Assembly: GCF_003001995.1 (NCBI RefSeq)
Contig: NZ_PVNB01000029.1
Coordinates: forward strand, 1 to 45,788
Source: Orenia metallireducens
GTDB lineage: Bacteria; Bacillota; Halanaerobiia; Halobacteroidales; Halobacteroidaceae
Reading direction: 5' to 3'
Length of the DNA: 45,788 nt
Shown here: in pieces, positions 12,452-35,724 of the stretch
Layout: every line of letters begins with the position of its first letter
Numbering within the stretch: position 1 is the stretch's first letter
Notes under the pieces: generated by a model
Told to the model about the DNA's origin: nothing
Databases searched by the model: none
Seen by the model: only the letters and a program-made list of their open reading frames with translations
Translations under genes and position numbers: made by a program

Positions 12452-14344
12452 GTGAATAGAAGTATTCTTAAGATTAATAATTTATCCTCTAGTAATTCAG
12501 AAGGTTATAGTATCGAAAAGATAAATTTAGATTTAAATTATGGGGAGGTCCATAGTTTAGTAGTGGAAAATGAATCGATCAGTGAGCTCTTCATTAAGAC
12601 CCTTGCTACTTACCTTAGAGGGGAATCTTTAGCAGAGATATTTGCTGAACTCCCATTAGAAGAGGTTGAAGGAGAATTGAATTTTAAAGGTAAGCTAATA
12701 AGTGAGGAGCATAAGCATAAGCTATCTGAAATAGGATTCTTATTAAAGAAATTTCCTCTTACAAACTCCTTTTCTATAGCAGAAAATCTCTTTGACTTAA
12801 ATTATCCAACCACAAGGTGGTTTAACTTTATTGACTGGAAGGAGATCAATAAGCGAGCTAAAGCTATTTTAACAAGCTTCAACTTTGGCTTAGATCATAA
12901 AGCCAAAGTAAGCACCTTATCTACTGAAGAGAAGAAGCTAGTAGCTATTGCTAAGGTCTTCTTAACGGAGCCAGAAGTGCTTATTATAAATGAGATGACA
13001 GATAAGCTAGGTTCTGATTCTACCTCTAAAGTCTATGAAATTATACATAATTATAAAAAGTCTGGTGGAAGCATCCTTTATATCACTAAAAGCTGGGAAG
13101 AGGCTTTAAAGATTTCTGATAGAATCTCAATCCTATCTAATTCTAAAATTAAAGGGACTTTATCGGCTGCAGAAGCTAAAAAATGTCCCCAAAAGCTCTT
13201 GAATATGTTAGTTGATTATAACTACAGAGAGGTTGAGGCTAGTTCAAGCGATGAGCGAGAAGTCTTAGATGCTGTCTTTAAAGCAGCAGAATTTTTGACC
13301 TCTGAGTATGAGTTAAAAGATGTGCTCTTATTATTAGCTAAAGAGGTAAGTAAGGTGATGAATGCCGATGGTTGTATTATAAATTTAATTGATGAGAGTA
13401 CTGGTACAGTAATAGATAGTTTAGAATTTAAAATAAAGAAGGATTTAGAAGCTACATTAAAGAAAAAATCTATTTTAAATATTTCTAAAGAGGATAATTT
13501 TTATTATTCTAATGCTAATGATAAGGAATTTTATTCCCTATTTAAAAAGATCAATCAGGTAAGAACAATTATCTGTATTCCACTTCTGATTAGGTCTCAT
13601 GTTTCAGGAATTATTCAGATCTTTTATGAAGGTTTTTATTTACATTCTGAAGAGGAAGCTAAATATTTATCGGCTTTTGCTCGGCAAGCTGCATTGGCTA
13701 TTGAAGATACTAGATTAATGGGCAGGTCTGCTTTACTACAAGAGAGCCACCACCGGATTAAGAATAATCTCCAAGCTATAGTTAATTTAATATCGTTGCA
13801 GAAGATTTTTATTAGTAAGAACTCAGATAAGTCCATCGATGATATTTTGGATAATATTATCCTACGGATTAAAAGTATAGCTACTGTACATGATATCTTA
13901 TCTAAAGATAAATTCGGTAGAAGTATTACAAATCTTAAGACTTTAATTAAAATTATTGTAAGATTTATTAATTTAGATAAGAAGGTTGAGGTCAATCTAG
14001 AGCTGGATGATATCTTTATTGCTTATAATAAGGCCTCTTCGATTGCTCTAATCGTCAATGAACTGGTCAGTAACTCTATAGAACATGCCTTTGCTAATGG
14101 GGAGGCTTGTACTCTTGATATCAAATGCAAACGTCTAGAAGAAGTAATATTATTAGTAATTAAAGATAATGGAGTAGGGATACCTCAAGACTTTAATTTA
14201 GCTAAACTGAACAGTTTAGGGTTATCGATAGTTGATTCTATAATTAAAAATGAATTTAAAGGAGAGATTAAGTTTTCTAAGTTAGAGCCAGGAACTAAGG
14301 TGATAATAAAGTTACCAATTAAAAGTATCTCATTAGGAAGTTAG
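12452..14344 (+). CDS. Sensor histidine kinase: degenerate RbsA-like ABC domain + GAF + HisKA_2/HATPase
   Basis: A 630-aa soluble protein in three parts. Residues about 1-250 follow the N-terminal ABC cassette of sugar-importer ATPases, closest in style to the RbsA-like protein at 16997. The Walker A GENGAGKS is replaced by VENESISE, the LSGGQ-type signature reads LSTEE, Walker B has Asn for Asp (LIINEM), and the switch histidine is absent (ITKS). It should therefore not hydrolyse ATP. A GAF domain covers about 265-420. The kinase core has the HisKA_2 motif ESHHRIKNNL (His433/434) and an HATPase domain with NELVSNSIEHAF and DNGVGIP. No membrane segments. GTG 12452 follows AGAGGTGG. The ANTAR regulator 109 nt downstream is the likely partner, as in EutW/EutV pairs. 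The pseudo-ABC part may sense transporter state; this is inference. Confidence 0.85.
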   Translation: MNRSILKINNLSSSNSEGYSIEKINLDLNYGEVHSLVVENESISELFIKTLATYLRGESLAEIFAELPLEEVEGELNFKGKLISEEHKHKLSEIGFLLKKFPLTNSFSIAENLFDLNYPTTRWFNFIDWKEINKRAKAILTSFNFGLDHKAKVSTLSTEEKKLVAIAKVFLTEPEVLIINEMTDKLGSDSTSKVYEIIHNYKKSGGSILYITKSWEEALKISDRISILSNSKIKGTLSAAEAKKCPQKLLNMLVDYNYREVEASSSDEREVLDAVFKAAEFLTSEYELKDVLLLLAKEVSKVMNADGCIINLIDESTGTVIDSLEFKIKKDLEATLKKKSILNISKEDNFYYSNANDKEFYSLFKKINQVRTIICIPLLIRSHVSGIIQIFYEGFYLHSEEEAKYLSAFARQAALAIEDTRLMGRSALLQESHHRIKNNLQAIVNLISLQKIFISKNSDKSIDDILDNIILRIKSIATVHDILSKDKFGRSITNLKTLIKIIVRFINLDKKVEVNLELDDIFIAYNKASSIALIVNELVSNSIEHAFANGEACTLDIKCKRLEEVILLVIKDNGVGIPQDFNLAKLNSLGLSIVDSIIKNEFKGEIKFSKLEPGTKVIIKLPIKSISLGS

Positions 14345-14453: not shown

Positions 14454-15041
14454 ATGCAAAAACCATTAAAGATTTTAGTAGCAGAAGATGAGTATTTATG
14501 TTTGATGGGTTTAAAGGCCAATTTAGAAAGGCTTGGCTATGAAGTAGTTGGAGAGGCAACAGATGGTGAAGAAGCCATCAAATTGGCTCTAGATAAAAAG
14601 CCTGATTTAATAATTATGGATATTAATATGCCCTCTGTAGATGGGATTGAGGCAATTAGAAGGATTAATAATAAGATATTTATTCCTAGTATAATAGTCA
14701 GTGGCTACCATGACCAAGAGTTAATAGAGAAGGCTAGTGGTGAAGATATTTTTGGCTATTTAGTTAAGCCTGTTGATGCTAATGATTTAAGTGCTGCTAT
14801 CAAGGTGGCAATGTCTCGATATAAGGAATTTAAGAGGTTAGAAAGTGAATTAAAGGATACTAAAATCTCTCTAGAAAATCGCAAGTATATCGAGAGGGCA
14901 AAGGGGATTTTAATGGATAGAAAAGGATTGAAAGAAGCAGAGGCGATGAAAGAATTACAGCAGATGAGTAGGAATAATAATAAGAAGATGGTAGACTTAG
15001 CTAAAGATATAATCAAAGCAGATAGTCTGTTTAGTGTATAG
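14454..15041 (+). CDS. ANTAR-domain response regulator (RNA-binding antiterminator)
   Basis: A 195-aa regulator with an N-terminal receiver domain (1-120). The acidic pocket is Glu11/Asp12, the phosphoacceptor Asp56 lies in IIMDINMP, and the conserved lysine is in YLVKPV. A coiled-coil linker leads to a C-terminal ANTAR domain (about 140-191) with the typical IERAKGILMDRKGL and the following helices. Phosphorylated ANTAR proteins such as EutV and AmiR bind paired RNA hairpins and prevent terminator formation. The upstream gene encodes a HisKA_2 kinase, the usual partner type. A leader with two similar hairpins and a terminator lies just downstream, at 15253-15417. ATG 14454 follows AGGGGGGG. 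The operon target is inferred; the domain calls are secure. Confidence 0.92.
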   Translation: MQKPLKILVAEDEYLCLMGLKANLERLGYEVVGEATDGEEAIKLALDKKPDLIIMDINMPSVDGIEAIRRINNKIFIPSIIVSGYHDQELIEKASGEDIFGYLVKPVDANDLSAAIKVAMSRYKEFKRLESELKDTKISLENRKYIERAKGILMDRKGLKEAEAMKELQQMSRNNNKKMVDLAKDIIKADSLFSV

Positions 15042-15193
15042 GAGGATCTGTTGATTTGCTTAGAGTAAATTGTCAGTATAATCCTAGAAAGTTAATTATC
15101 AGTTAGTAAAAACTAAAATTAAGTAAAGATGAGATTTACAGAGGATAATGGAGTTAAAATCATATAATTGTTTGAGGCTGTATTTGATTGAAT

Positions 15194-15222
15194 TTGATTG
15201 TTTCGGCATAAGAGTGTATAAT
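15194..15222 (+). promoter_or_regulatory. Sigma-A promoter of the ABC-transporter leader
   Basis: TTGATT (15194-15199) and a perfect TATAAT (15217-15222) are 17 bp apart. Transcription would start near 15229, about 25 nt before the first hairpin. Confidence 0.65.
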
Positions 15223-15252
15223 AAATTTATCAAGTGAGAGAGTTAGAACTTT

Positions 15253-15349
15253 TTCTTTATGCTCATGGTCGGTGTGGAGAAAATTATTTCAAGAGAATAT
15301 AAATGAACAATTTAAAATATAGAGTCTATGCCTATGGCTGGTGTAGATT
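15253..15349 (+). promoter_or_regulatory. Two-hairpin ANTAR-type antitermination target
   Basis: Hairpin 1: TTCTTTATGCT (15253-15263), loop CATGGTC, GGTGTGGAGAA (15271-15281), an 11-bp stem with several GU pairs. Hairpin 2: TCTATGCC (15325-15332), loop TATGGCT, GGTGTAGA (15340-15347), an 8-bp stem extendable by two pairs. The hairpins share the frame ATGC-x-x-ATGG-x-x-GGTGT. Counted from the loop A, both place A and G at positions 1 and 4, the reported ANTAR-site loop signature. They are 41 nt apart, and the terminator begins 12 nt after the second. The site is predicted by eye; no folding or covariance was run. Confidence 0.6.
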
Positions 15350-15361
15350 ACAGGGGTTATG

Positions 15362-15417
15362 GGTGCCCCATATATGTATACGTTAAATTATGTATGCATG
15401 TATGGGGCACCTGTTTT
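15362..15417 (+). terminator. Leader terminator (attenuator) upstream of the ABC operon
   Basis: GGTGCCCCATA (15362-15372) pairs with TATGGGGCACC (15401-15411), extended by AT pairs inward, and is followed by TGTTTTTATTTG. It lies more than 500 nt before the first gene and between that gene and the only good promoter, so read-through control is the obvious role. Confidence 0.8.
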
Positions 15418-15560
15418 TATTTGTATGAGTTTATAACATATAATTCATAAGTAAAACAATCATATATAATCATATAAGAGAACATAATTAAGAATAAACT
15501 ATAGCTTTTAATACTAAAAAATTTAATAGAGTGGGTATAACCTTTATAATAACTATTGAC

Positions 15561-15618
15561 TATAATAGCCCATTTATATCAAAATCTTTGGTGGCTTTGA
15601 TATAAATGGGCTATTATA
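15561..15618. other. Perfect inverted repeat with 23-bp arms
   Basis: The left arm (15561-15583, starting TATAATAGCCCATTTATATC) and right arm (15596-15618) are exactly complementary around the 12-nt loop ATCTTTGGTGGC. No T-run follows (CTTAAAATAATAAG), so it is not a standard terminator. It could be a second attenuator, an RNA-stability element or a small insertion. Confidence 0.6.
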
Positions 15619-15620
15619 CT

Positions 15621-15710
15621 TAAAATAATAAGTTTTAGGTAATTAGAGTCATAAGTTTAATTACTTTAATAAGGACTCTTATTATAAATTGAGGGCTAAA
15701 GCCCTTTAAA
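15621..15710 (+). repeat. Leader unit 1 of a tandemly duplicated two-hairpin structure
   Basis: It runs from TAAAATAATA to the A-rich tail after GCCCT. It has a stem AGAGTC (15645-15650)/GACTCT (15674-15679) with ATAAG at both ends of its loop, then the segment CTCTTATTATAAA, then the hairpin AGGGCTAAAGCCCT (15692-15705). Unit 2 repeats the same order. Confidence 0.6.
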
Positions 15711-15782
15711 AAGAGATTAAAGGGAAGGGGGATAGTTAATAAGTTAATTTAATAATTATTATAAGCGATTATTTTATTAGAT

Positions 15783-15873
15783 TAAAATAATCATAAGTTG
15801 ATCAGAGCCAATAAGTATGGTTGTTCTATAAGGGCTCTTATTATAAAGATGGGGCAGCAGCCCCATCTAAATA
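15783..15873 (+). repeat. Leader unit 2 of a tandemly duplicated two-hairpin structure
   Basis: It has a stem AGAGCC (15804-15809)/GGCTCT (15833-15838), again with ATAAG words next to both stem strands, the identical segment CTCTTATTATAAA, then the hairpin GATGGGGCAGCAGCCCCATC (15848-15867). Several stem changes relative to unit 1 preserve pairing (T to C with A to G). It ends about 40 nt before the ribosome site of the binding protein gene. Confidence 0.6.
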
Positions 15874-15931
15874 AAATGAGTTAAAAAATCAAAAAATCTA
15901 TTGATTTAATTAAAATTGGGGGGATTTATTA

Positions 15932-16918
15932 ATGTTTAATAAAAAAGGGATGGTATTAATTTTAGCAATGGTTTTAGTTTTTGCTTTAACAGTAAATGCA
16001 GGTGCATGGTGGATCTTTGGTGGAGATGATAAACAGGAGAAGAATACAACTGGTAAACCTCATGAAGGAATCAAGGTTGGAATTACGTTTATGACCACTG
16101 ATAATCCATTCTTTAAAGCTATGGAGGATGCTGTTAGAGAAGAGGTAGAGGGTAATTTAAATGGAACTTTACTTGTTTCAAATGGTCAGCATGATGCTGC
16201 CAAGCAATTGGCTGATGTTGAAGATATGATCGTGCAAGGTATTGAGCTATTATTATTAAATCCTGTTGACTATGAAGCATCAGAAAGTATTGTTGCTGCT
16301 GCTAAAGAGGCTGGAATTCCAGTTGTCTGTGTTGATGGTGATTCTATTGGTGACCGTGATATCTTTATTGCATCTAATAACTATAAAGCTGGTGTGATTA
16401 ATGCTGAATATGTTAATGAACGTTTGAATGGGAAAGGAAAGGTTGTTGTTATTAATGGTAATCCTGTATCTGCTGTAAGAAATAGATATAATGGATTTAT
16501 GGAAACTATTAAGAAATATCCAGGAATTGAAGTTGTTGCAGAACAGAATGGTAATGGTAAGAAAGCTGATTCAATGGAAGTTATGGAGAATATCTTACAA
16601 GCTCAACCAAAAATTGATGCTGTCTTTGCTATCAATGATCCAAGTGCTTTAGGGGTAGTAGCTGCTGCTCAATCTGCTGGTCGTGCTGATGAATTCTTTG
16701 TGATGGGTGTAGATGGTGCTCCAAATGCAGTAGAGGTAATTGCTAATAATGAAACTGGAATGGGTATGGCTGCAACTGCTGCCCAAGAGCCTGCAAAGAT
16801 TGGAAAATTGGGTGTTGAGTATGGATTGATGTTACTAGATGGGAAGGTTGTTCCTGATGAATTACCTGTACCAGTAAAATTAATCACTAGTGAGAATGCT
16901 GCTAGCTTTAGTTGGTAA
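15932..16918 (+). CDS. Sugar ABC transporter substrate-binding protein (RbsB/FrcB-like)
   Basis: Periplasmic binding protein type 1 for a monosaccharide such as ribose, fructose or xylose. The 328-aa precursor has a Sec signal peptide (about 1-24, hydrophobic core then VNAGA). There is no lipobox cysteine, so the mature protein should be free in a periplasm, which fits a diderm cell. The two-lobed fold is evident: TTDNPFFKAMEDAV near the first lobe start, LLLLNPVD, and the second-lobe motifs AINDPSALG and MGVDGAPNAV. ATG 15932 follows a GGGGGG ribosome site. It is the first gene after the long leader. The 78-nt gap to the ATPase contains a hairpin likely to favour binding-protein expression. 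Substrate is not decided by sequence; the kinase at 21273 points to fructose. Confidence 0.88.
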   Translation: MFNKKGMVLILAMVLVFALTVNAGAWWIFGGDDKQEKNTTGKPHEGIKVGITFMTTDNPFFKAMEDAVREEVEGNLNGTLLVSNGQHDAAKQLADVEDMIVQGIELLLLNPVDYEASESIVAAAKEAGIPVVCVDGDSIGDRDIFIASNNYKAGVINAEYVNERLNGKGKVVVINGNPVSAVRNRYNGFMETIKKYPGIEVVAEQNGNGKKADSMEVMENILQAQPKIDAVFAINDPSALGVVAAAQSAGRADEFFVMGVDGAPNAVEVIANNETGMGMAATAAQEPAKIGKLGVEYGLMLLDGKVVPDELPVPVKLITSENAASFSW

Positions 16919-16959: not shown

Positions 16960-16996
16960 ATTATTAGATTTAAACTCTAATAGAGGGGTGCCTATT

Positions 16997-18487
16997 ATGG
17001 ATAATATTTTAGAGATGAAGAATATCAATAAGTCTTTCTTTGGTGTTAGAGCACTAAAGAGTGTTAGTCTAGAAATTCGTAGAGGAGAAGTCCACTGCTT
17101 GATTGGGGAGAATGGAGCAGGAAAGTCTACGTTAATGAAGATTCTTTCAGGTGCTTATCAAAGAGATTCAGGTGAGATAGTATTTAATGGGAAGCCATTA
17201 GATACAAGTAGTACTTTACAGGTACAGCAAGAAGGGATTAGCATAATTTATCAAGAGTTTAATCTTGCTTCTGTGCTGAGTGTAGCTGAAAATATATTTA
17301 TGGGTAGAGAGCCACTTAATAAATTTGGAATGATTGATAAAGAGAAGATGTATGCTGATACCCAAGAGATATTAGATAAATTAGGGGTAGAGGTTAGTCC
17401 TAAGGCTTTAGTTAATAAGTTGAGTGTTGCTGAGCAACAGTTTGTTGAAATTGCTAAAGCACTCTCCTTTGGAGCTAAATTGATTGTGATGGATGAGCCT
17501 TCAGCAACTTTAACACCTAAAGAGTTAGAACGTTTATTTGCAGTTATTTATGACTTAAAGATGAAAGGTGTTTCTATTATCTATATCTCTCATCATCTAG
17601 ATGAATTGATTGAGATTGGAGATAGGGTAACGGTGCTGCGTGATGGGGAGAATGTGGCTACTGATGATGTAGATAAGATTGATAAAGATCAGATTATTCG
17701 TTGGATGGTTGGCAGGGATTTGACCAATAGTTATCCACCACGAACAGTAACACCAGGCGAGAAGGTATTAGAGGTTAAGAAACTGTCTAGTGAAGGGGTC
17801 TTAAAGGATATCAACTTCTCCTTATACAAAGGTGAAATTTTAGGAGTTGCAGGATTGGTAGGAGCTGGAAGAACAGAGCTGGTTAGAGCATTATATGGTG
17901 CTGATCCTAAGGATACAGGAGAGATCTATCTTAATAAACAATTAATCAATGTAGATTCTCCAAAGGATAGTATTGACCATGGGATTGGTCTGCTGCCAGA
18001 GGATAGAAAGCAGCAGGGGGTTGTCTTAGGTCAGTCGATTAAGAATAATATCACCCTAGCTAAGATAGATAAGATAACTAAAAAGATACTGATCGACAAT
18101 GGGCAAGAGAGAAGAGAAGTACAGCAGTATATTGAGAGTTTAGGGGTTAAGACACCTTCTCAAGAGATGCTAGCTAGAAATTTAAGTGGAGGTAATCAGC
18201 AGAAGGTCGTCTTAGCTAAATGGATGTTTACCAACTCCAATATCCTAATCTTTGATGAGCCAACTAGAGGGATTGATGTTGGGGCTAAGTATGAAATCTA
18301 TGAACTGATGAATAAATTGACTGAGCAAGGAAAATCAATTATTATGATCTCTTCTGAACTGCCAGAGATTATTGGGATGAGTGATAGGGTCTTAGTCATG
18401 CATAAAGGTAGAATTAGTAGTGTTTATGATCGTACAGAACTAAGTCAAGAAAAAATTATGAAGAGTGCTGCTGGGGAGGTAGGTTAA
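16997..18487 (+). CDS. Sugar ABC transporter ATP-binding protein (RbsA/FrcA-like)
   Basis: Double-cassette ATPase of the CUT2 class. Cassette 1 is canonical: GENGAGKST, LSVAEQQ-type signature, VMDEPSATL, and the switch histidine in YISHH. Cassette 2 has the usual RbsA-type altered P-loop (LVGAGRTELVRAL) but a canonical LSGGNQQK signature and IFDEPTRGID. ATG 16997 is preferred: AGAGGGG (16982-16988) sits 8 nt upstream, whereas the longer frame's GTG at 16988 lies inside that ribosome site. The permease gene begins one base after the stop codon. Together with the neighbouring permease and binding protein it forms one importer. Its first cassette is the apparent relative of the dead ABC domain in the kinase at 12452. 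Confidence 0.93.
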   Translation: MDNILEMKNINKSFFGVRALKSVSLEIRRGEVHCLIGENGAGKSTLMKILSGAYQRDSGEIVFNGKPLDTSSTLQVQQEGISIIYQEFNLASVLSVAENIFMGREPLNKFGMIDKEKMYADTQEILDKLGVEVSPKALVNKLSVAEQQFVEIAKALSFGAKLIVMDEPSATLTPKELERLFAVIYDLKMKGVSIIYISHHLDELIEIGDRVTVLRDGENVATDDVDKIDKDQIIRWMVGRDLTNSYPPRTVTPGEKVLEVKKLSSEGVLKDINFSLYKGEILGVAGLVGAGRTELVRALYGADPKDTGEIYLNKQLINVDSPKDSIDHGIGLLPEDRKQQGVVLGQSIKNNITLAKIDKITKKILIDNGQERREVQQYIESLGVKTPSQEMLARNLSGGNQQKVVLAKWMFTNSNILIFDEPTRGIDVGAKYEIYELMNKLTEQGKSIIMISSELPEIIGMSDRVLVMHKGRISSVYDRTELSQEKIMKSAAGEVG

Positions 18488-18488
18488 G

Positions 18489-19487
18489 ATGGATTTAGAA
18501 TTAACTCAAAAAATCAGTTCTTCTGACAAAAAGAATAGCTTTTTTGAAAAAATTAATAATAGTTATTATAAGCCTGAGATATATGCAGTTATCGGTTTAA
18601 TCTTATTATCTATTGCTTTATCAATTGCTAGTCCTTATTTTTTTACATCTAGAAATATGATTAACTTGGCACGCCAAGTCTCTTTGAATGCTATTATTGC
18701 AACTGGTATGACCTTTGTAATCTTAACAGGTGGAATTGATCTATCAGTTGGTTCTATTGTAGCCTTTACAGGAACATTAATTGCAGGATTTATTGTAAAT
18801 TCAGGGATGTCACCAGTATTGGCCAGTATTTTAGGTTTGGCTTTAGGAACCTCTTTTGGTGTCTTTAATGGTTTAGTAATCTCTAATACTAAGATACCAC
18901 CAATTATTGTGACCTTAGGTACCATGTCAATGGCTAGAGGTGCTGCTTTATTATATACTGGTGGGAGTCCAATTGCGGGATTATCAGCTGGCTTTAAGTT
19001 TATCGGTAGAGGCTATTTAGGAGCAATTCCAGTACCAGTTTGGATTATGGTTCTTATTTTAGCTGTGGCTAGTGTAGTATTAAATAAGACCAAATTTGGT
19101 CGCCATGTATGTGCTCTTGGAGATAATGAAGAGACAGTTAGACTTTCGGGAATCAGTGTTAAAGCAATTAAAATGAAGATTTATATGATTACAGGATTTA
19201 TGTCAGCAATTGCTGGTTTGATTTTGGCTGCTCGGTTAGGTTCTGGGCAACCTTTAGCAGGTGAAGGATGGGAATTGGATGCTATTGCTGCCACTGTAGT
19301 TGGAGGAACTGATATTATGGGTGGTAGAGGTACAATTATAGGAACTCTGATTGGAGCTTTTATTATTGGAATAATCAATAATGGATTGAATTTATTGAAT
19401 GTATCTCCATATCTACAGCTAGTAGTAAAAGGGGCAGTTATTGTAGGCGCTGTATTTGTTAGATCAGGAGTTGTAAAGAGAAAATAG
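18489..19487 (+). CDS. Sugar ABC transporter permease (RbsC/FrcC-like)
   Basis: Integral membrane permease of the branched-chain amino acid/ribose family (BPD_transp_2), 332 aa with about eight to ten hydrophobic segments. Family features include TGGIDLSVGS near residue 80 and the coupling region VVGGTDIMGGRGT near 275. It starts at ATG 18489, one nucleotide after the ATPase stop, with a ribosome site inside the ATPase end. A strong terminator (19538-19570) ends this three-gene importer unit. Substrate class is pentose/hexose monosaccharides; the exact sugar is not determined. Confidence 0.92.
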   Translation: MDLELTQKISSSDKKNSFFEKINNSYYKPEIYAVIGLILLSIALSIASPYFFTSRNMINLARQVSLNAIIATGMTFVILTGGIDLSVGSIVAFTGTLIAGFIVNSGMSPVLASILGLALGTSFGVFNGLVISNTKIPPIIVTLGTMSMARGAALLYTGGSPIAGLSAGFKFIGRGYLGAIPVPVWIMVLILAVASVVLNKTKFGRHVCALGDNEETVRLSGISVKAIKMKIYMITGFMSAIAGLILAARLGSGQPLAGEGWELDAIAATVVGGTDIMGGRGTIIGTLIGAFIIGIINNGLNLLNVSPYLQLVVKGAVIVGAVFVRSGVVKRK

Positions 19488-19570: not shown

Positions 19571-19646
19571 ATAAGCCTTTTATCTCTAATTAATTCCATA
19601 GTATTAAGTTATAGTGTTGATACTTTTTGTAAAGGAGGGGAAAAAT

Positions 19647-21257
19647 ATTATATTTATCTCAAAAGAGAAGCATAGCTCATATTTTAGTAAATTTAAAGAG
19701 CTGTTATCTAGAATAACTATTGCTAAACAAGTACAGTGGGGTTTTTATGGACTATTTATAATTTTATTGATAACTGCAATGATAATCTTAGAGAATACTA
19801 ATCAAATCTTAAATAAGATTGAGAATTTAGATAAAAATATAATTCCGATTGTTCAATCTAATGAAAGAATAACTAGAAATATGTTAAGAAGAGAGAAGAA
19901 TATATATGGTTGGCAGTCAGGTATAGTTGCCTTAAAAGAAACAGGAGATATTATTTCCAAAGATATAAACTCTATTAAAAAGCATAGAATAGAGGTGGAT
20001 ATTTTAAAAGAGTTAGATCAGATTGATGGTCTAGCTGCTGAAATAGATGATAAAATCAATAAGTTATCAAAGTCAGAAGTTGATGGCATAGAGAGAAGGC
20101 TGCTATTTTCAGAGCTAACAGGAATAATATCTAAATTTAATCAGAAAAACTCATCTCTTGTCAGAGAGAATTGGGATGAGTTAAGTAAGAATATGAGTAG
20201 TATTGTAGATAGTGCTCTTAATATCAGAAAGAGGGCTATAATTATAACTACTATAAGCTTATTAGTATCTCTTCTTTTAGTGATCTTATCTAATAAAAGG
20301 ATTACTAATGTTACAGATGATATAAAAGCGAAGACCTTTCAGGCTGCTACTAGAGGTGATAAGATAAATAGTTCTGCTCAAAAGATGAAGGATAGAGCAG
20401 ATAATGTTGATCAGAGAATTAATCATAGCTTTCAAATTATTAAAAATTCAATTAAGGCAGATAAAGAAGTCTTTTTTACAATCTCTCAGATATCAAGTTC
20501 TATTAATGAAGTATCAACAGGAGCTAACTCTTTAAATACTCAAGCTGAAGAGATTTTAGATGCTGCTCAGCTGACATATGAGTCTATTGAAGAAGCTGAT
20601 GATCAAATTACCTTAGCACATAAGATAATTTATGAAACAGTTGATATTATGGAAAAACTTAAATTAAGTCTTGCTAAGATAGATAAAATATCTGATAAGA
20701 TTAGGGGGATTACTGATCAAACCAATTTATTAGCATTAAATGCATCGATAGAGGCAGCTAGATCAGGGGAAAACGGTAAGGGCTTTGCTGTGGTAGCAGA
20801 TGAAATTAAAATTCTAGCAGATGAGAGTTTGCTTGCTACCAACTCTGTTAAAAGTATTATCAAAGAGATTGATGAGGTATCTGAGCAAGCAATTATTAAT
20901 ATGGTAGATAAAGATGATAGTATGAGTATTATTAATATCTTTTCAAAGGTCAATAGCCTCTCAAGAGGGATTGTTACTAAGATGGGCAAGGTAATTGGAT
21001 CTGCTAAAGAGCAACTTCATTCAACTCAGCAGATAAATAGGGTAACCCAAGGGATTGCTGCTAGTAGTAGCAAGGTATCTACCCAAATAGAGTCTACTTT
21101 AGATAGAACTAATCAGTTGGAATATACAATGGAAGAGGTAGTTAATTTAAATAATGATCTGCTTGCGAGTATTGATAGTCAGAGTATTCAATATCAACAG
21201 CAGTTAAAACTGATAAATAATATAATAGTTGCTAATCAAAAATTAAAGAATAGATAA
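19647..21257 (+). CDS. Methyl-accepting chemotaxis protein
   Basis: Transmembrane chemoreceptor. An inner-membrane segment (near [13 protein letters not shown]) and a second ([18 protein letters not shown]) flank a helical, lysine- and isoleucine-rich periplasmic domain of about 145 aa, 4HB-like. The cytoplasmic part is a long coiled coil with the conserved hairpin tip [20 protein letters not shown]. No clear HAMP domain is seen. The start is unusual. The open frame extends to GTG 19614 (547 aa), but the only ribosome site, AAAGGAGGGG (19631-19640), lies inside that extension. The codon at proper spacing is ATT 19647, giving 536 aa. No ATG occurs before residue ~90. Its place between sugar importer and fructokinase suggests taxis toward the same sugar, perhaps through the binding protein. 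Confidence 0.82.
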
Positions 21258-21272
21258 AGAGGTGAAATATAA

Positions 21273-22217
21273 ATGAAAGGAATTATATCTTTGGGAGAAG
21301 CGTTGATTGACTTTACCCCTTTAGACGATAATAATATGAAATTTCAAAAGAGTCCAGGAGGAGCTCCAGCTAATGTGGCAGTAGGCTTAAGTAGACTAGG
21401 AGCAGAGTCTACCTTTGTAGGTAAGGTTGGTGATGATCTATTAGGTAGATTTATGAAAGAGATTTTGGAGATAAATAGTGTTAATACAGATAATATGCTC
21501 TTAACAGATCAGGCTAGAACAGGGTTGACCTTTGTTACTTTAGCTGAAGATGGAGATCGAAGTTTTAGCTTTTATATTAATCCTAGCGCTGATACTTTCT
21601 TGAGTCAAGATGATATTGATACTAAGATATTTAAAGAAAATAAAATCTTACACTTTGGTTCGATCTCTTTAATCCATGAGCCAGCCTGTAGTGCTACTAA
21701 ATATGCTGTACAACAGGCTAAAGAGCAGGAAATGCTAATTTCTTATGACCCTAACTTACGTCTAAATCTTTGGGAGAGTAGTCAAGCAGCTAAAGAAGGA
21801 ATTATCTCTATCTTAGATCAGGTTGATATTCTTAAGATTTCTGAAGAAGAGTTAGAATTTATTACTGGTGAAGTAGATGTAGAAAAGGGTGTTAAAATAT
21901 TAAAACAGGAATATGATATTTCTTTAACTTATGTCACCTATGGTAGTAAAGGTTCTTATTATTACTATAATAATCTACTAACCTTTATAGAAGCAATGGA
22001 GGTAGAGACAGTGGATACTACAGGAGCAGGAGATGCTTTTGTCTCAGGTATCCTATACAACCTAAATAAGACAGACAAGAAGATAAGTGAGTTAGATAAG
22101 AAGTTTTTAGATAATACTATTAAGTTTGCTAGTATCTCTGGAGCCTTAGCAGCCTCCCAAAAAGGTGCTATGTCGGCTTTACCTACTTTGGAGCAAATTC
22201 AAGAGATTATGGGGTGA
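21273..22217 (+). CDS. Fructokinase, PfkB family (second copy)
   Basis: A close paralogue of the kinase at 6394-7344. Most positions are identical and some DNA stretches of more than 40 bp differ by only one or two bases (for example around 21680-21765). It keeps GGAPANVAVGLS and the catalytic DTTGAGDAF (Asp254), 314 aa. ATG 21273 follows AAAGAGGTG and lies 15 nt after the chemoreceptor stop, so the two are cotranscribed. It would phosphorylate fructose brought in unphosphorylated by the ABC importer, an arrangement like the FrcBCA-K fructose systems of other bacteria. The substrate assignment is inferred. Confidence 0.86.
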   Translation: MKGIISLGEALIDFTPLDDNNMKFQKSPGGAPANVAVGLSRLGAESTFVGKVGDDLLGRFMKEILEINSVNTDNMLLTDQARTGLTFVTLAEDGDRSFSFYINPSADTFLSQDDIDTKIFKENKILHFGSISLIHEPACSATKYAVQQAKEQEMLISYDPNLRLNLWESSQAAKEGIISILDQVDILKISEEELEFITGEVDVEKGVKILKQEYDISLTYVTYGSKGSYYYYNNLLTFIEAMEVETVDTTGAGDAFVSGILYNLNKTDKKISELDKKFLDNTIKFASISGALAASQKGAMSALPTLEQIQEIMG

Positions 22218-35007: not shown

Positions 35008-35724
35008 ATGTTGAAAATAGGTCATCGCGGAGCCTCAGGTGTAGCTCCAGAGAATAGCAAGGCTGCCTTTCTTAAGGCTATAGAGTTTGGACTGGATATG
35101 GTAGAGTTAGATATACAGTTGACTAAAGATAATAACTTAATTGTATTTCATGATTATGATTTAAAGAGAATTACAGGGTTAGATAGAAAGGTAGGTGAGA
35201 TGACCTTAGCTGAGCTTAAGAAGCTTGATATTGGTAGTTGCTTCAGTAAAGAGTTTAGTGATGAGAGGATACTTACTCTAGCAGAGGTGATTGATCTGCT
35301 TAGAGGTAAGTTAAAGATCAATATTGAGATTAAGATTAATCAACAAAAAAGTGATGTTATTATTGAGAGTTTGTTTGATATATTGGAGGAGCAAGAGTAT
35401 GAAGATGATGTGATTATCTCGTCCTTTGACCATAGAATACTTAAGGTAATTAAAAGGAAGAAGCCTTCTTTGAAGACGGCAGTTTTAATTGGTGCTATAG
35501 TAATGGAACCAATTAGATTAATTCAAGAAGCTTCTGCTGATGGAATTCACCCCCATTATTTGACGATAAGTAAAGAATTGGTAGAAGAGTTAAAGGATTA
35601 TGGATATTTTATTAACACATGGACTGTTAATAGTAAAGAAGAGGTAGATAGACTAGTTGAAATAGGGGTTGATGGGATTATGAGTGATTATCCCATGCTG
35701 ATAACAAAAGCAGTGAAGAGATAA
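35008..35724 (+). CDS. Glycerophosphodiester phosphodiesterase
   Basis: A GDPD-family hydrolase of 238 aa releasing glycerol-3-phosphate from glycerophosphodiesters of lipid turnover. Motif GHRGASG with catalytic His6 and Arg7, metal ligands Glu33 and Asp35 in VELDIQL, and second catalytic His48 in FHDYDL are all present. The C-terminal NTWTVNS and DGIMSDYP are typical. There is no signal peptide, so it resembles the short cytoplasmic UgpQ type and not the long periplasmic GlpQ. ATG 35008 follows TGGAGGG. A PfkB kinase follows after 113 nt with its own control site. Confidence 0.92.
   Translation: MLKIGHRGASGVAPENSKAAFLKAIEFGLDMVELDIQLTKDNNLIVFHDYDLKRITGLDRKVGEMTLAELKKLDIGSCFSKEFSDERILTLAEVIDLLRGKLKINIEIKINQQKSDVIIESLFDILEEQEYEDDVIISSFDHRILKVIKRKKPSLKTAVLIGAIVMEPIRLIQEASADGIHPHYLTISKELVEELKDYGYFINTWTVNSKEEVDRLVEIGVDGIMSDYPMLITKAVKR

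Follow-up and report, generated by a model that had tools for sequence, protein, structure and literature searches.

A histidine kinase with a degenerate importer-ATPase domain, encoded beside an ANTAR regulator and a sugar importer in Orenia metallireducens

Introduction

What could a histidine kinase sense through a domain that looks like half of a sugar-importer ATPase, and to which output would it be wired? The question is raised by a gene in a 45,788-nt stretch of Orenia metallireducens DNA (hereafter the window), which lies upstream of genes for a response regulator and an RbsABC-type importer. An earlier note on this DNA had proposed that a duplicated ATPase half became a module that reads the state of the cognate importer and passes it to the kinase.

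To our knowledge, few cases of a kinase reading the state of an ABC importer are known; the kinases BceS and PhoR sit in the membrane, and the XylFII-LytS system is linked to a CUT2-type importer. In BceS-BceAB and PhoR-PhoU-PstSCAB the kinase relays the state of an ABC transporter, which it contacts directly or via PhoU (PMC6978683). Xylose sensing by XylFII-LytS, in the account cited in PMC6321045, passes its signal via a binding protein and a ligand-binding domain of the kinase, and 5TMR kinases share the S-component fold of ECF transporters (PMC11109136). EutW-EutV and other ANTAR systems combine a kinase with a receiver-ANTAR regulator and tandem hairpins P1 and P2, the second of which overlaps an intrinsic terminator (PMC3369931).

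Results

A soluble kinase with a degenerate ABC ATPase domain

The reading frame starts with GTG and encodes a soluble product of 630 residues (Table 1). No hydrophobic segment of transmembrane strength was found in the kinase by 19-residue hydropathy, the highest value being 1.78 within the GAF domain as compared with 2.67 for the RbsC protein of the same window; in this respect the protein is no BceS-type transmembrane sensor. Pfam searches returned ABC_tran (E=1.4e-9, above the cut-off), GAF_3 (3.8e-9), HisKA_2 (PF07568; 2.9e-12) and HATPase_c (PF02518; 4.8e-12), which agrees with the earlier reading of GAF and HisKA_2/HATPase domains behind the ABC part. The phosphoacceptor box shows no variation across 23 aligned members, as in HisKA_2 kinases of the PdtaS/EutW type, and the N and G boxes of the HATPase_c domain are invariant (N536, E537, N541; D572, G574, G576; G590).

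Table 1. Features of the kinase, regulator, leader and importer region of the window.
Feature	Position	Strand	Details
Histidine kinase, pseudo-ABC + GAF + HisKA_2 + HATPase	12452..14344	+	630 aa
N-terminal ABC ATPase-fold domain, catalytic motifs degenerate	12452..13219	+	residues 1-256
Lost Walker A position	12563..12589	+	residues 38-46
Walker B, Asp changed to Asn180, catalytic Glu181 retained	12989..12994	+
GAF domain	13304..13711	+	residues about 285-420; Pfam
HisKA_2 domain, phosphoacceptor box HHRIKNNLQ	13742..13933	+	Pfam and alignment
HATPase_c domain	14036..14323	+	Pfam
Response regulator, receiver + ANTAR RNA-binding domain	14454..15041	+	PF00072 2.8e-26, PF03861 1.6e-18
Extra upstream P1-like hairpin	15251..15283	+	7-nt loop CAUGGUC
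Leader hairpin P1	15323..15349	+	10 bp, loop UAUGGCU
Leader hairpin P2	15353..15369	+	loop UAUGGGU; 3' arm within the 5' arm of the terminator
Intrinsic terminator	about 15359..15420	+	-40.6 kcal/mol, z -8.2, followed by a U run
Sugar-binding protein, RbsB-like (Peripla_BP_4)	15932..16918	+
CUT2 importer ATPase, RbsA/XylG-like	16988..18487	+	two halves
CUT2 importer permease, RbsC-like	18489..19487	+
MCP signalling-domain protein, probable operon member	19614..21257	+	between permease and PfkB sugar kinase
PfkB-family sugar kinase, probable operon member	21273..22217	+

Among the ABC ATPases, the N-terminal domain is closest to those of CUT2 importers. In NCBIfam, residues about 4-280 matched best the N-terminal profile half of the YtfR/XylG/AlsA/RbsA ATPases (top 7.5e-26), which accords with the assignment of residues 1-250 to an RbsA-type cassette; the cited likeness of GEVHSLVVEN in the kinase to GEVHCLIGEN in the transporter ATPase is also present as claimed. 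Structure prediction from 23 homologues gave a model with a mean pLDDT of 76 and a pTM of 0.46, values at which the arrangement of the domains is unreliable. Within it, the predicted N-terminal domain has an ABC fold and no unrelated one (Foldseek E about 1e-13, single-domain matches having a target-normalised TM-score of 0.76-0.81; VIA Z about 22-24 with rmsd mostly 2.3-3.8 across ~235 residues), and the kinase portion resembles the EL346 histidine kinase. A search of solved structures gave no RbsA at E <= 1e-30.

The fold of an active CUT2/RbsA ATPase is thus retained, and its catalytic motifs are not. The Walker A position reads VVENESISEL, in which every G, K and S/T is gone; the Q-loop Gln is replaced by Lys and the H-loop (switch) His by Lys213. 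Of these losses, those of the Walker A Lys and glycines and of the switch His, together with that of the Walker B Asp, match the changes listed in the earlier note. That note had also counted the signature motif, which is indeed altered (LSTEEKK); the change carries little weight, because the first nucleotide-binding domain (NBD1) of the RbsA from the same operon is already non-canonical (LSVAEQQ). The status of the domain as a predicted pseudo-ATPase is well supported.

Family distribution and stepwise loss of the motifs

Near full-length homologues with the same domain order, at 44-95% identity, were found in 13 of 59 Halanaerobiia genomes (window counted), a few of whose reading frames contain an internal stop, and full-length homologues also occur in other Bacillota and in Bacillaceae (Halalkalibacter, Evansella, Mesobacillus and Gracilibacillus). 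This distribution is a lower bound, since the wider contig scan relied on one peptide pattern. Pfam recovered the ABC, GAF, HisKA_2 and HATPase domains in six of six distant members, with one HATPase match barely below the cut-off. A fusion or frameshift artefact is ruled out by the uninterrupted full-length homologues across many genera. One truncated homologue (L051:8184-9485, G025) ends after the HisKA_2 box at 434 aa with Walker A intact; it adjoins RbsABC-type genes and an FGGY kinase, has no ANTAR regulator nearby and is possibly a decaying copy.

The catalytic motifs differ in how far they have gone among the 31 kinase ABC domains. The Walker A Lys is kept in 15 and gone in 16, and among the latter are the window kinase and every Bacillaceae member; the Walker B Asp remains in 4 and is absent from 27, the H-loop His remains in 1 and is absent from 30, and the entire motif set is intact in a single, outlying member. 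The catalytic Glu, E181 in the window kinase, is present in 31 of 31. In the RbsA first halves encoded in these operons, all scored motifs are intact (26/26; H-loop His 25/25). In a kinase tree built from the GAF and kinase parts with the ABC domain left out, Walker A and the Walker B Asp are both intact in outlying members, the Asp is missing from the main clade, the Walker A Ser/Thr is lost in a sub-clade, and the Lys is lost in one group comprising the window and Bacillaceae; the tree requires one change for the Walker B Asp, one for the Walker A Lys and two for the complete Walker A. The distribution on this tree indicates that the motifs were lost stepwise.

These losses bear on what the domain could sense. 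The earlier note had taken homologues with an intact P-loop as evidence against its reading, and a complete Walker A does occur in 9 of the 31 domains, but on outlying or intermediate branches, with the losses placed later on the tree; a protein-binding role therefore fits better than nucleotide sensing, although nucleotide binding may matter in some branches because of these nine. It is very unlikely that the domain is a cytosolic ATP/ADP sensor gating importer expression according to energy state. The invariant catalytic Glu would suit such a sensor, as would the outlying members with their retained Walker A and Walker B Asp, one of which also has the H-loop, yet the operon context is unchanged in the 16 members without the Walker A Lys, so that energy sensing would at best be an ancestral mode.

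In the ABC-domain tree, the kinase domains cluster together next to the RbsA first halves and not within them, although the joining branch has a weak support of 35; this points to a single, old origin next to an RbsA-type first half. The proposed origin from an RbsA-like half thus stands, and the idea of a recent duplicate of the neighbouring ATPase falls: a copy of the adjacent RbsA would be too recent, and is ruled out by the grouping of the kinase domains apart from all RbsA halves.

The kinase family is encoded beside ANTAR regulators and CUT2 importers

The regulator gene that follows the window kinase is the sole ANTAR match in this genome assembly, which contains nine BPD_transp_2 permeases. 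An ANTAR regulator lies beside or divergent from nearly every family kinase, with none at the truncated L051 homologue or at L081, where the contig ends. An RbsC-type permease was found at 28 of 28 family loci with enough flanking sequence, in tandem or divergent order, and RbsA and a binding protein at nearly all of the 28; the contigs of L046 and L073 stop before any ATPase gene. Five ANTAR systems with kinases that have no ABC domain served as controls and showed no RbsA or RbsC within 14-19.5 kb (0/5). The claim that the kinase neighbours its cognate importer therefore extends to the family, and the counter-case that the earlier note had named, homologues that never lie beside an ABC sugar importer, is contradicted. 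That note had seen the kinase and the importer and overlooked the output, namely the ANTAR regulator and a putative antitermination leader. On these gene orders, the predicted wiring of kinase, regulator and importer is well supported.

Enzymes encoded near the family kinases vary by locus and include a glycyl-radical enzyme, an FGGY kinase and a URO-D-like protein; the constant of the family loci is therefore the type of importer and not one sugar. One family operon (L046:3823-10255) encodes a glycyl-radical enzyme with its likely activase and two RbsC-type permeases, which suggests a different substrate. In the window, the MCP protein raises the separate possibility that chemotaxis may draw on the importer's signal.

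Selection on the ABC domain

Despite its lost motifs, the ABC domain shows a dN/dS of 0.08 with the nearest relative and of 0.23 with the next, more distant one, for which dS is near saturation. The former H-loop of the kinases carries family-specific conserved residues (TKxWEEAL); this segment and the one after the Q-loop (residues 107-131, SVAEN...W) equal their RbsA NBD1 counterparts in conservation, whereas the Walker A and Q-loop segments are conserved below the RbsA level. These values indicate a domain that is still under selection and more than a product of decay. In ABC importers, the segment after the Q-loop sits near the coupling helix of the permease; the conservation of a putative docking surface on the ABC domain is no more than suggestive.

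With the kinase, GAF and regulator distances removed, ABC-domain distances correlated with those of RbsA and RbsC (partial r 0.29 and 0.23; p=0.0045 and 0.012, respectively). The ABC domain evolves fast, and these correlations, though significant, are modest. Kinase-domain distances, given the ABC domain, had no link to RbsA or RbsC, and GAF distances had none to RbsC once the others were removed (partial r 0.00). The latter result weighs on the alternative in which the ABC domain serves purely for scaffolding or dimerisation and the kinase is driven by a GAF domain that detects an intracellular sugar or metabolite. We regard this as unlikely: every member scanned has a GAF domain, a type that commonly binds ligands, and a family that covers operons for different sugars would be compatible with it, but the ABC domain tracks CUT2 importers in the locus comparison above, and a plain scaffold would not need an origin in the importer's own type of ATPase. 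The GAF domain could still sense a ligand on its own.

A leader RNA with tandem hairpins and an exclusive terminator

The leader region, from the end of the regulator gene to the binding-protein gene (15042-15931), contains two hairpins and a terminator that share sequence: the 3' arm of P2 is common to both structures, so that P2 and the terminator are mutually exclusive. By a strict pattern, which was derived from the same loci, tandem hairpins were detected at 16 of 28 loci and in none of the dinucleotide shuffles; most of the remaining loci have them in variant form, as judged by eye. Across 22 aligned leaders, 91.9% of the pairs form, with 37 double-change cells as compared with 8.3 in shuffles, and the signal vanishes when the partner is slid; P1 is 98% paired, with both sides changed in six of eight pairs. 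Strong matches to a covariance model (>30 bits) are sited between regulator and importer at family loci, with one in this genome, and none was found in eight relatives without the kinase; the search also gave three weak matches of about 25-26 bits. One further match, in G020, was absent from the training set and lies at a contig end between a regulator tail and SBP-RbsA-RbsC genes.

With an adjoining receiver-ANTAR regulator, tandem P1/P2 and a P2 that overlaps the terminator, the layout matches the published ANTAR mechanism of EutW-EutV. It differs in its loops: those of the published system are hexaloops with A1 and G4, and most of those in the family have 7 nt, with A at the second and G at the fourth position, some members having 6 nt. 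A scan for hexaloops of the published style gave no conserved pair and only two scattered matches, both outside the leader, and Rfam gave no credible match on the leader (microRNA models only, far below gathering scores).

Several further structures were observed. At 35530-35611 the leader model gives a weak match of 21 bits, whose P1 loop carries a 36-nt insert and which may be due to chance. Inside the leader region, a long hairpin at 15548-15625 (-33.1 kcal/mol, z -9.6) is a candidate for a second terminator or for a processing site. Two similar tandem structures (15640-15715 and 15795-15880; z -2.5 and -4.7) lie between the terminator of the leader and the binding-protein gene, each consisting of an AGAGYC...GRCTCTTATTATAAA stem and, after it, a GGGC/GCCC hairpin; they occur once in each of three genomes of the genus and have no Rfam match.

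Retention of this output bears on a reading in which the ABC domain throttles transport by binding to RbsA or RbsC and signalling is secondary. By pairing with an active ATPase, a dead half could poison it, and the evidence from gene order applies equally to such a brake; the fused kinase domains, however, retain every catalytic box, and regulator and leader are kept nearly everywhere. Signalling is therefore the conserved output, and a brake on the importer seems highly improbable.

Discussion

We favour an importer-coupled two-component antitermination switch in which the pseudo-ABC domain docks on the importer, and assign this reading a probability of roughly 0.6. The ABC fold, the lost motifs, the gene order, the compensatory changes in the leader and the exclusive terminator are all visible in the sequences; the docking, the signal and its sign, the phosphotransfer and the antitermination are inferred. 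The pseudo-ABC domain would tether the soluble kinase to the neighbouring RbsABC-type importer at the site of the importer ATPase, either on the coupling loops of RbsC or alongside RbsA. A sugar-driven change in the importer would alter the activity of the HisKA_2 kinase, which would phosphorylate the ANTAR regulator; the phosphorylated regulator would stabilise P1/P2 in the leader before the binding-protein gene, and P2, once held, would block the terminator and allow the importer genes to be transcribed. Such a circuit suggests that the cell senses sugar through its own importer. In a bolder and rather doubtful version, a kinase dimer bearing two pseudo-ATPase domains would replace the importer ATPase on the RbsC dimer, making the permease itself the receptor; if so, a loaded binding protein would signal via permease and kinase to an RNA antiterminator without transport.

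The proposed switch combines features of several known systems. As with BceS and PhoR, the kinase would read out an ABC importer, and its gene is linked to that of the transporter, but it is soluble and would bring its own ATPase-derived adaptor. Two-component control by sugar is shared with XylFII-LytS, the input of the window kinase being ATPase-like instead. Its input domain has the fold of a transporter component, as in the 5TMR kinases; that component is a membrane substrate-binding one in 5TMR kinases and a cytoplasmic ATPase here. With respect to EutW-EutV, the input is an ABC pseudo-ATPase and the target a CUT2 sugar importer. The open-access literature searched held no account of an ABC-domain kinase, a pseudo-ATPase kinase or an ABC-ANTAR combination. 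ANTAR systems and transporter-coupled kinases are known kinds, and what is new is their predicted union through a pseudo-ATPase input domain.

In this reading, the adaptor would be an importer ATPase that can still be recognised as such and whose chemistry was lost in steps that are visible in living relatives. The family would present a compact case, open to testing, of a transport motor that became a sensor, joined to a kinase and a defined RNA output, and it offers a way of predicting the inputs of ANTAR systems in Bacillota.
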